Source of the DNA: a virus
IMG/VR virus record: IMGVR_UViG_3300046660_000538
Span: 1 to 36,736 of that record
Reading direction: 5' to 3' (one strand)
Length of the DNA: 36,736 nucleotides
In this document: positions 2,613-9,389 of the stretch, piece after piece
How the letters are laid out: every line of letters starts with the position of its first letter
How positions within the stretch are numbered: the first letter of the stretch is position 1
Notes under the pieces: generated by a model
What the model was told of the DNA's origin: nothing
What the model saw: only the letters and a program-made list of their open reading frames with translations
The model's database searches: none
Program-made: the position numbers and the translations under genes

Positions 2613-3362
2613 CTATAGAGCTGGAAATCTCAGAGTATCCAGCTTGGCGTTTCCACCCAAGCGGTAGTGCAAAAACCTGTCCATGATGGTCCAGGCCCGC
2701 ATCGTAATCTCTTTGGAGACCGCTCCGTCTTTGTAAGTCGGCTTGCCATGCCGATGATCCAAAGAATGCTCCATAATCAACTCGACGTATTCGCGAGAAA
2801 TGTTCAACTGGTCGCGGAAAATTGGCCACTGCTGACCGGGCGTTAGGTCGTAGCCCGCTACCATCTGTCGGATGGCCTCTACTGAGCGCGCGCAGTTTAT
2901 CGTCGTGTTGTCCTCGAAGCTGATAGAGGTAACCAGATCCTCTAGCGCTTTGATTATCGGCTGCTCGCTCATAACTAAGGCGAGGGCCTCGTTGAATCCG
3001 ACGCTGTCAGAAAACGCCGTACATAGCGGCGGCAGCTGCGGGTCATGTGTCACCAATCGGTCGACCACGCCGTTCTCCCGCCAATGATCGAGCACGATCG
3101 TGGGGCCCACGGCCATCTGGAATGCGGCTAGGTTTACCTGAGCACGCAGCAGTTTGACGGCGTGCATCCACAGGATCAGGAGCCAGTTATCGACCTTGGT
3201 GTTGAAGCTCACGGTGACTTCAATCTCAGAATTGACCACCGAGAATTCAAACCTCGCGATCAATGGAACGTTCGCGTCGGTATAAACCACGTTGGGAACG
3301 TTGCTCAGCGTTAGCGTCCACCCCGCAGGATAAACCCGGCCTAGGAATTCGATCTGGTGCAT
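2613..3362 (-). CDS. hypothetical cargo protein, lower GC
   Basis: A 249-residue soluble protein of unknown family. It opens MHQIEFLGRVYPAGW, has a beta-rich first third (FEFSVVNSEIEVTVSFNTKVDNW) and a helical remainder ending in an MDRFLHYRLGGN segment. It has no signal peptide or membrane segment. Base composition is visibly less GC-rich than the virion genes, and it points against the surrounding phage genes. It is divergent from the membrane-protein gene at 3537 with about 170 bp between the starts. These are marks of a moron, a separately transcribed lysogen cargo gene. Defence or superinfection exclusion is possible, but the sequence does not show it. Confidence 0.65.
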   Translation of the reverse strand: MHQIEFLGRVYPAGWTLTLSNVPNVVYTDANVPLIARFEFSVVNSEIEVTVSFNTKVDNWLLILWMHAVKLLRAQVNLAAFQMAVGPTIVLDHWRENGVVDRLVTHDPQLPPLCTAFSDSVGFNEALALVMSEQPIIKALEDLVTSISFEDNTTINCARSVEAIRQMVAGYDLTPGQQWPIFRDQLNISREYVELIMEHSLDHRHGKPTYKDGAVSKEITMRAWTIMDRFLHYRLGGNAKLDTLRFPAL

Positions 3363-7288: not shown

Positions 7289-7310
7289 CACCCTCGCTTG
7301 TTTCGGCGGG

Positions 7311-7408
7311 GGTTAGGGCGCGCCAACGCCCTAACCGCGGGAGTGGAGCCCGCACGTCGGGGCGCTAGCAGCCCGTCAGTTCCCGCCACCGGTCCGACCG
7401 GCGGGAAC
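7311..7408. promoter_or_regulatory. two large inverted repeats in the com leader
   Basis: GGTTAGGGCG (7311-7320) pairs perfectly with CGCCCTAACC (7327-7336) around 6 nt. GTTCCCGCC (7379-7387) pairs perfectly with GGCGGGAAC (7400-7408) around 12 nt. Neither is followed by T's. They fill the divergent gap between the cargo gene at 6830 and com at 7430. They may be operators on DNA or structure in the com leader RNA. Confidence 0.5.
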
Positions 7409-7429
7409 CCTTCCACGTTGAGTCTACCC

Positions 7430-7729
7430 ATGGAGTCCATCCGCTGCGTGTCTTGCGACGCGCTTCTTTTGCGTGCCGATCGCCAGGCCCTGGCCGGCAA
7501 GATCGAGATCCGTTGCCGCCGTTGTGGCGTCGACAACCACCCGAGGCCTCCGAGCCCGTCAGCCGCGAAGTCGGCAGAAGGGAAGGGGGCTCATGCCCTA
7601 CGTCAGCATATCCGGCCTTCAGGCCGTCACACCGGTTCGGCCAGTCGCCCCGTACATCGGTGGCAAGCGCAACCTGGCCCGGCGCCTGGTCACCCTGATC
7701 GGCGAGACGCCCCACCTGGTCTACGCTGA
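7430..7729 (+). CDS. Com-like zinc-finger translational regulator
   Basis: A 99-residue protein whose first half matches Mu Com, the small zinc protein that binds mom mRNA and opens its translation start: ESIRCVSCDALLLRADRQAL then IEIRCRRCGVDNHP. Zinc ligands are the two CxxC pairs (C6/C9 and about C29/C32). Mu Com has about 62 residues; here the frame continues 46 codons beyond the start of the adenine methyltransferase gene at 7593, and this extra Pro/His/Arg-rich tail may be little more than overlap. Com-like genes directly before a DNA methyltransferase are known in other phages. A duplicated leader element before both following methyltransferase genes is its candidate target. Confidence 0.75.
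   Translation: MESIRCVSCDALLLRADRQALAGKIEIRCRRCGVDNHPRPPSPSAAKSAEGKGAHALRQHIRPSGRHTGSASRPVHRWQAQPGPAPGHPDRRDAPPGLR
7535..7583 (+). promoter_or_regulatory. leader element copy 1 (before adenine MTase)
   Basis: A 49-nt element closely similar to 8401-8446. It begins AACCACCCGAGGCC and ends with a small hairpin, GCCG (7562-7565) with CGGC (7572-7575), then CAGAAGGGA, which serves as part of the ribosome site. Its end is 9 nt before ATG 7593, the same spacing as copy 2. It lies inside the Com-like coding frame. Candidate Com-responsive RNA element (inference). Confidence 0.55.
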
Positions 7730-8402
7730 ACCCTTTGTCGGGATGGGCGGGATCTTCCTTCGTCGGAAGGTCCGGCCGTCCGGCGAGATAATAAACGACT
7801 GGAGTCGCGACGTTTCGAACCTCTACCGGGTGCTGCAGGCCCACTACGGCCCGCTCCTGGACGTGTTGCGATTCCAGATCACGGGCCGGGCGGAGTTCGA
7901 CCGCCAGCAGGCCGTGGATCCCGAGACCCTGACGGATCTGCAGCGCGCGGCCCGGTTCTTCTATCTGCAGCGCGTCGCCTTCGGCGGGAAGGTTGCCGGC
8001 CGAAACTTCGGCGTGAGCCTGCGCGGCGGCAGCATCGACACCACGAAGGTCGAGCAGCTGCTCGAGGCGCTTCACCGGCGCCTGGCCGGCGTCGTCATCG
8101 AGCGTCTGCCCTGGGCGAAGTTCATCGAGCGGTACGACCGGCCGGAAACGCTGTTCTACCTGGATCCGCCTTACTTCGGGTGCGAGGGCGACTATGGCCC
8201 TGGCCTCTTCAGCCGAGAGGAGTTTGTCGAAATGGCGCAGATCCTCGCCGGCCTGAAGGGCCGCTTCATCCTGTCGCTGAACGACCGCCCCGAGGTCCGC
8301 CAGATATTCAGCGGCTTCGAGATCCTCGAGGCCGACACGACCTATTCCGTTGGGGGCGCTCCCCAAAAGGCCCACGAGGTGATCATCACCGGGGGCAAAT
8401 AA
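7593..8402 (+). CDS. D12-class DNA adenine N6-methyltransferase
   Basis: A 269-residue enzyme that transfers a methyl group from S-adenosylmethionine to adenine N6 in DNA. The Dam/D12 motif order is clear: motif X YIGGKRNLAR (residues 21-30), motif I EPFVGMGG (46-53) for SAM, and catalytic motif IV DPPY (191-194). Length fits a phage Dam-like enzyme. ATG 7593 has a strong ribosome site (AAGGGGG) and starts just before the conserved region; longer in-frame starts lie inside com. It follows com as mom does in Mu and may protect phage DNA from host restriction or mark it for regulation. Target site cannot be read from the sequence. Confidence 0.92.
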   Translation: MPYVSISGLQAVTPVRPVAPYIGGKRNLARRLVTLIGETPHLVYAEPFVGMGGIFLRRKVRPSGEIINDWSRDVSNLYRVLQAHYGPLLDVLRFQITGRAEFDRQQAVDPETLTDLQRAARFFYLQRVAFGGKVAGRNFGVSLRGGSIDTTKVEQLLEALHRRLAGVVIERLPWAKFIERYDRPETLFYLDPPYFGCEGDYGPGLFSREEFVEMAQILAGLKGRFILSLNDRPEVRQIFSGFEILEADTTYSVGGAPQKAHEVIITGGK

Positions 8403-8446
8403 CCACCGAGGCCGTCGAGCCCTAAGCCGCGTAGCGGCAGAAGGGA
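8401..8446 (+). promoter_or_regulatory. leader element copy 2 (before cytosine MTase)
   Basis: A 46-nt copy of the element at 7535-7583, beginning at the stop codon of the adenine methyltransferase gene. GCCGC (8426-8430) pairs with GCGGC (8434-8438) around GTA, a stronger hairpin than in copy 1, and CAGAAGGGA follows with 9 nt to GTG 8456. Unlike copy 1 this copy lies between genes, so its conservation is not explained by coding. Confidence 0.6.
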
Positions 8447-8455
8447 CGACGCCTT

Positions 8456-9382
8456 GTGGCTCTATGTTCCCAATTCCAACCCGAGCCCGACGACTTCCTC
8501 GGGCTCTCCCTGTGCGCCGGCTATGCCGGCCTTGACCTCGGCCTGCACATCGCAGAGCCAGCCTATCGAACTGTTTGTTTCGTCGAGCGGGAAAGCCACG
8601 CTGCGGCCACTCTCGTGGCTCGGATGGCGGACCAAGCCCTGGATCAAGCGCCTATCTGGGGTGACCTTAGATCCTTCGACGGCCTCCCTTGGCGTGGCCG
8701 CGTTCGTGTCCTCACTGCCGGTTATCCCTGCCAGCCGTTCAGCCTGGCCGGCCGCCGACGAGGCGCTGACGACCCCCGCCACCTATGGCCCGTTGTCGCT
8801 CGGATCATCGACCAGGTCCGACCCGAGTGGGTGTTCCTCGAGAACGTCGAGGGTCACGTCGATCTGGGACTGGCCGACGTCGTCGGAGACCTTGCCGGCC
8901 TGGACTACACGTCAAAGGTCGGCCTGTTTACGGCGCGAGAAGCGGGCGCAAGCCATCGCCGGCGGCGCCTCTTCATCCTGGCCCACGCCAACGGCGCGGG
9001 ACAGCGGCTACCAGACGGAGCTGCTGGTCCAGGGCGAGACGATCAAGCTGGTTGCGCCGGCGGACATCGACACGGAGAGCGGGGGTCAGTTCCCGGTCTC
9101 ATGGTCAGCCCGGGTCTGGACGATGCTGTTCCTGATCCTGCAGGCGATGGGGATCCCGTTGTCGGCGGCGAGGCCGAACTCTTCGCCCCTGGCCCGGGTG
9201 AGCTTCAAAGGTGGGAGCGGCTCCTTGCTGTCCGACCTGAGACCCAACCCGCTGTTCTACGAAATGCTGATGGGCTGGCCGACGTCCTGGACCGCACCAG
9301 GGGCGTCGGTAACGGAGTTTGCAGCATGGCTGCAGCGCTCGCGTGGTCGGTTCTCAAGACTGCTCACCGACTTCCAACCTGA
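8456..9382 (+). CDS. C5-cytosine DNA methyltransferase
   Basis: A 308-residue enzyme that methylates cytosine C5 in DNA. Motif I is LGLSLCAGYAGLDLGL (residues about 15-30), motif IV is PCQPFS with catalytic C92, motif VI is ENV (129-131), motif VIII is RRRRLFILA (168-176) and motif X is near GNGV (285-288). The C-terminal text (LFAPGPG, then NADGLADVLDRTRGVGNGV) also fits phage members. The variable target-recognition part is short. It starts with GTG after a duplicated leader element. The +1 frame is open over the same DNA and also reads as a plausible methyltransferase C-terminus (see 8979-9389). The host or phage target is unknown. Confidence 0.88.
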   Translation: MALCSQFQPEPDDFLGLSLCAGYAGLDLGLHIAEPAYRTVCFVERESHAAATLVARMADQALDQAPIWGDLRSFDGLPWRGRVRVLTAGYPCQPFSLAGRRRGADDPRHLWPVVARIIDQVRPEWVFLENVEGHVDLGLADVVGDLAGLDYTSKVGLFTAREAGASHRRRRLFILAHANGAGQRLPDGAAGPGRDDQAGCAGGHRHGERGSVPGLMVSPGLDDAVPDPAGDGDPVVGGEAELFAPGPGELQRWERLLAVRPETQPAVLRNADGLADVLDRTRGVGNGVCSMAAALAWSVLKTAHRLPT

Positions 9383-9389
9383 GGGCTAG
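8979..9389 (+). other. second family-like frame over the MTase 3' part
   Basis: In the +1 frame relative to the cytosine methyltransferase, the DNA reads WPTPTARDSG from 8979 and, near 9246-9330, NPLFYEMLMGWPTSWT then VTEFAAWLQRSRG. These are also recognisable C-terminal motifs of phage-type C5 methyltransferases. The frame stays open to a stop at 9389, seven bases after the main stop. It could be an old frameshifted ending, dual coding, a product of frameshifting or a separate overlapping gene (internal ATG at 9123). Confidence 0.4.

Follow-up and report, generated by a model that had tools for sequence, protein, structure and literature searches.

Downstream of a com-like gene in a 36.7-kb virus record, nearly the same short leader precedes two DNA methyltransferase genes, raising the question of whether a single Com protein governs both. 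Work on Mu has already described Com, the RNA hairpin involved and the activation of a single gene at the level of translation, and has established a structure able to hide the start codon (the TIS). To our knowledge, and as far as the open-access literature goes, Com has so far been a one-protein, one-mRNA regulator. We refer below to the whole 36.7-kb stretch as the window.

The com, dam and dcm genes occupy positions 7430 to 9382 on the forward strand of the window. com (7430-7729) encodes a 99-amino-acid zinc-ribbon translational regulator with a CX2C...CX2C pattern (phrog_6417/phrog_13819). It matched the Com family PF10122 with an E value of 4.5e-6 and 26.5 bits, above the curated cut-off of 22.9, and so confirmed the earlier suggestion, made from the letters alone, of a Com-like gene upstream of both methyltransferase genes. 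The two enzymes do differ in chemistry, as that sequence-only reading had also claimed: dam (7593-8402, ATG start at 7593) encodes a D12-class N6-adenine methyltransferase (PF02086, E 1.7e-19; phrog_56, E 7e-70), and dcm (8456-9382, GTG start at 8456) encodes a C5-cytosine methyltransferase (PF00145, E 4.8e-29; phrog_363, E 4e-52). As in the Com family, com lies directly upstream of a DNA modification gene, and its 3' part overlaps the start of dam by 137 nt. The Com protein of one relative, L002, is 93% identical to that of the window. A block containing several GC hairpins lies upstream of com (7300-7428) and is near-identical in L002; a hairpin resembling it precedes dam in L060, and no further copy of the block was found within the window. 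Elsewhere in the window, an HTH open reading frame, a RelE/HigB-looking one and a second, adjacent HTH-looking one (286-1299) seem toxin-antitoxin-like when judged by eye only.

When the 70-nt stretches preceding dam and dcm were aligned locally, leader 1 (7535-7583) paired with leader 2 (8402-8446) at a score of 60. The highest control scores were 35, from 703 pairings of other upstream regions of the window, and 33, among 5000 dinucleotide shuffles; outside the region, leader 1 had no other match above 28. The two leaders are thus near copies, as first proposed, with single-base gaps in their alignment. In each, the last letters are CAGAAGGGA, which stop exactly 9 nt short of the start codon and so agree with the spacing originally noted. 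Leader 1 lies within the com reading frame (..NHPRPPSPSAAKSAEG..) and forms the 3' end of com. Leader 2 (8401-8446) is non-coding and sits in the 53-nt gap between dam and dcm, after the dam stop codon. The putative ribosome-binding sequence of dam is AGAAGGGA (7576-7583; from sequence and fold), and that of dcm is GAAGGGA (8440-8446; from the fold). We set aside a reading of the repeat as a promoter or operator because it contains a Com RNA motif and stands at a fixed distance from the start codons.

In vitro selection with the Com zinc finger yielded the target NGAGNNCC(N)2-3GAGNNCC, whose core, CC(N)2-3GAG, occupies a hairpin loop with a C-G closing pair and whose GA dinucleotides were footprinted; the structure of the Com-RNA complex was unsolved at the time of that study (PMC6483171). 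Each leader in the window carries a GAGGCC-N3-GAGCCC core, and the pattern GAGGCCN{2,3}GAGCCC occurs exactly twice in the 36.7 kb, where 0.05 occurrences are expected. The core coincides with the first hairpin of each leader, HP1 (GAGGCCNNNGAGCCC), at 7543-7557 and 8408-8422, which is predicted to be foldable as GA, GGC, a CNNNGA loop, GCC and C. The two versions, GA-GGC-CUCCGA-GCC-C in leader 1 and GA-GGC-CGUCGA-GCC-C in leader 2, both agree with the selected motif, in its CC(N)2-3GAG core as well as in the GAG/CC flanks. The hairpin of Mu com-mom, GAATGCCTGCGAGCATC (taken from the Mu record), follows the same plan. By sequence, then, a candidate Com-recognized hairpin stands upstream of both start codons. 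A second hairpin, HP2, is predicted in each leader, GCCG-CGAAGU-CGGC at 7562-7575 and GCCGC-GUA-GCGGC at 8426-8438. The small GC hairpin originally described for each leader is indeed present by the ribosome site, but each leader has two, and the Com-like site is the first.

We gathered relatives by scanning for Dam, Com and Dcm as well as for the leader, which provided about 116 non-redundant com genes. For pattern scanning, a tighter Com alignment (A3) was used in place of one (A2) that proved too divergent. The window Com gave no tblastn match to named phages at E 0.01; a one-residue variant of the L002 Com, searched at E up to 10, reached Mu, B3 and others. The HP1 motif was present at the com 3' end in most of the 116 relatives, and the strict Com hairpin lay there in 74 of 93 non-redundant loci, with 42 occurrences elsewhere in the remaining 1.09 Mb. 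Since the HP1 stem hardly varies, we tested its constraint through codon usage in 102 com genes with an RPx[SE]P tail (RPxSP or RPxEP). These genes are related to one another, and the counts below should not be taken as independent. The rare arginine codon AGG was used in 99 of the 102, compared with 4.6% of arginine codons in the neighboring methyltransferase genes. The tail serine was AGC in 49 of 49 genes (background, 33%), each time preceded by a G, and the tail glutamate was GAG in 53 of 53. The letters GAGCCC are read as SP in the first 49 genes and as EP in the other 53, so they are kept across two reading frames. This fixation points to selection on the RNA and not on the Com protein, and HP1 at the com 3' end is constrained as RNA.

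The leaders of most relatives carry both HP1 (GAGGCC N3-4 GAGCCC) and HP2 (GANNGC-C..GA-GCNN). The outer stem pair of HP2 is AU, GU, UA, CG or GC, with 98.5% of cells paired and a covariation of 0.179 against 0.055 in shuffles (reached in 0 of 500). A second measure gave 92.7% paired and 0.301 against 0.080 (again 0 of 500). Covariation in the leaders of related phages, suggested earlier as a check, was therefore found for HP2 but is uninformative for HP1, whose stem is nearly invariant. HP2 of leader 1 sits where the HP2 of relatives covaries, yet its sequence departs from their consensus. A covariance model (R1) built without the window found leader 2 as its top match there (16.8 bits, E 0.019) and leader 1 as its second best (15.5 bits, E 0.036); these scores are modest, as the window leaders deviate from the Com-like consensus in HP2. 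A covariance match in L048 (27.7 bits) was dropped because it fell within an integrase-like coding region. Across 398 Caulobacterales genomes, R1 returned com-linked matches as well as low-scoring ones with no com, dam or dcm nearby.

Gene order among the relatives is variable: com-dcm, com-dam, com-dcm-dam, com-dam-dcm and dam-com-dcm all occur, the last, a further reshuffling of the three genes, in L172 (3501-4000) and L336 (minus strand, near 8408). With two covariance models, one leader was found per com locus searched, at the com end. A second, non-coding copy, which gives both modification genes of one operon a preceding Com hairpin, occurred only in com-dam-dcm operons, namely those of the window and of L058 and L126, both of a Brevundimonas lineage. 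The double leader is thus rare, being confined to three records from two lineages. HP1 was absent before dam in 14 of 14 com-dcm-dam loci, and the second copy was also missing from L064, where the distal dcm belongs to a divergent type. Com hairpins also precede genes of other kinds at com loci without a downstream dam or dcm, which include L171, L190, L170 and L218: N6_N4 methyltransferase genes (L171 and L190 groups), mom (L138, which is Mu, and L218, which clusters with it) and an ABC-ATPase/GNAT-like gene (L170 group).

Three sister phages bear on the origin of the second copy. L061 (com-dam), L154 (com-dcm) and L058 (com-dam-dcm) share genes that are 98 to 100% (Com), 96% (Dam) and 97% (Dcm) identical. 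Between L154 and L058, in which Com is 98% and Dcm 97% identical, clean continuous homology before dcm begins at GAGGCC. Judged from this alignment, the region before dcm in L058 is one from which the com gene was lost while the hairpin module was retained. The L058 and L126 modules differ at three positions, all in loops or linkers. The closest counterpart of the window dam is in L002 (com-dam, 72%), and the L058 genes have theirs within the Brevundimonas lineage; two separate origins of the double leader are therefore possible. A terminator-like hairpin with a T-rich tail lies between dam and leader 2 in L058 (about 3180-3232), which suggests that dcm in that phage may rely on read-through or on a promoter of its own.

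Structure prediction pointed to two alternative states of the leaders. In an isolated 40-nt fragment, both HP1 and HP2 are predicted to form. In a 91-nt context, HP1 is predicted to be replaced in both window leaders by a long-range fold of the same topology. In leader 1, GGCCUCC would pair with GGGGGCU, and the CCC of HP1 would pair with the GGG of the ribosome site. In leader 2, CGAGGC..GUCG would pair with CGAC..GCCUUG and so reach the first base of the GUG start codon, the predicted pairs including CCCU of HP1 (8420-8423) with the AGGG of the dcm ribosome-binding sequence and CGAGGC (8407-8412) with GCCUUG (8451-8456). The loop and spacer sequences differ between the two leaders, and the complementarity is retained. 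Relative to shuffled sequences, the fold of leader 2 was stable (z = -3.1); that of leader 1 was no more stable than its shuffles (z = -0.4). In 48 leaders located before dcm, pairing of HP1 with the start region came to 10.3 expected pairs, compared with 4.0 when the tails were shuffled, and 44 of the 48 scored higher than their shuffles. Some of this pairing involves letters of the start codon, which the protein also constrains. The competing pairing was weaker before dam (7.7 versus 4.6; higher in 9 of 14).

We weighed three other explanations for the two leaders. The most serious is that leader 2 is a scar: as dam entered between com and dcm, the com 3' end would have been duplicated with it and had no time to decay, so that it would give dcm a ribosome site without Com control. 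The lineage-specific letters that the two leaders have in common (AACCACC and CAGAAGGGA) fit such an origin, and the L061, L154 and L058 sisters show that reshuffling of this sort is recent. A decaying scar would not be expected, however, to keep the HP1 core intact in non-coding copies of two lineages or to confine all three L058/L126 differences to loops or linkers, nor would leader 2 of the window be expected to retain the predicted competing pairing with its own, different spacer. We consider a scar unlikely.

A strong common ribosome-binding region, giving equal basal translation of the two enzymes, with a factor other than Com as the regulator, would account for the identical 9-nt spacing and the shared terminal letters. 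The likeness nevertheless spans 46 nt and includes the Com motif, and HP1 is kept in L058 and L126 even though the letters of their ribosome site are not the same as in the window. The sequence-only reading would have been undermined had the likeness been confined to the ribosome site in relatives; instead, the non-coding copy before dcm in the second lineage retains both hairpins. We regard this explanation as very improbable. Least credible of all, to the point that we give it almost no weight, is that the element is a protein-level feature of the Com tail with the hairpin as a by-product. In the relatives the motif does lie inside the com frame and encodes RPxSP or RPxEP, but the codons themselves are fixed and the same letters serve two frames. 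The non-coding leader 2 keeps those letters as well, and for that leader the explanation is already refuted.

The reading that we prefer, and judge to be quite likely, is that the leaders are two copies of a Mu-type, Com-responsive translational switch for two enzymes. A duplicated Com target, at first guessed from position and similarity, now draws support from the selected motif, the Mu hairpin, the RNA-level constraint in relatives and the covariation of HP2, and one Com probably switches on both dam and dcm. Without Com, HP1 would be opened and its strands would pair with the Shine-Dalgarno sequence and start region of the leader's own gene, holding translation down. As Com accumulated, it would bind HP1 through the C-G-closed CNNNGA loop and the GA and C flanks, favoring the local hairpin and freeing the ribosome site. 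Leader 1, at the com 3' end, would serve dam. Leader 2 would be a non-coding copy that places the distal dcm, too distant from dam for tight coupling, under the same Com. The two enzymes would then be made late and in coordination, methylating adenine and cytosine in phage DNA, presumably to counter host restriction. For binding by the window Com and its translational effect, we draw on the Mu precedent, and the switch, the activation and the anti-restriction role are likewise inferred.

A second open frame of 311 amino acids (8454-9389, TTG start; phrog_1008, E 5.5e-16) covers all of dcm. It starts at 8454, 2 nt before dcm, behind leader 2. Both frames are open for about 300 codons in about 44 of 53 related dcm loci, and the third usually closes within about 10 codons. 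In stretches with little conservation of the Dcm frame, the other frame has conserved residues of its own (WPTPT..., NPxF....MGWPigWt...), and the two fully overlapping frames of about 300 amino acids look like dual coding. It is conceivable, if rather doubtful, that Com controls three products through the two RNA switch copies: Dam, Dcm and the other-frame protein of about 311 amino acids.

The proposal that no Com regulon with two targets had been described stands uncontradicted: targeted searches of the open-access literature turned up no such description. As far as searched, two things are new, a further target gene equipped with a separate copy of the element and a Com target that is a conserved two-hairpin module at the com end across the family. 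If our reading is correct, the Com target is a 45-nt module that can be moved in front of other genes, forming a small post-transcriptional regulon for phage DNA modification enzymes. The set of more than 100 com loci, in which hairpins covary and the element is read in two frames, amounts to a natural mutagenesis of the Com-RNA contact.

The window resembles Mu com-mom in having a zinc-ribbon com gene that overlaps the start of a DNA modification gene, a hairpin with GA, a C-G closing pair and a CNNNGA loop just upstream of the ribosome site, and a possible start-hiding structure, which in the window is predicted only. It differs from Mu, where mom is the only target, in having two targets of different chemistry, a non-coding second target copy and an HP2 that separates the Com hairpin from the ribosome site. 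The predicted resting fold of the window also uses HP1 itself as the anti-ribosome-site strand. Pseudomonas phage B3 and its relatives (L139 and L140) share with the window a com gene that overlaps an adenine methyltransferase gene and carries the Com hairpin at its 3' end; these phages, in contrast, have a single target and lack a distal dcm with a leader of its own. The motif selected with Haemophilus sputorum Com has the same bipartite GAG..CC / CC(N)2-3GAG layout, 3- to 4-bp stem and C-G closing pair (PMC6483171), but whereas that motif came from in vitro selection, the window presents it in natural leaders and in duplicate.
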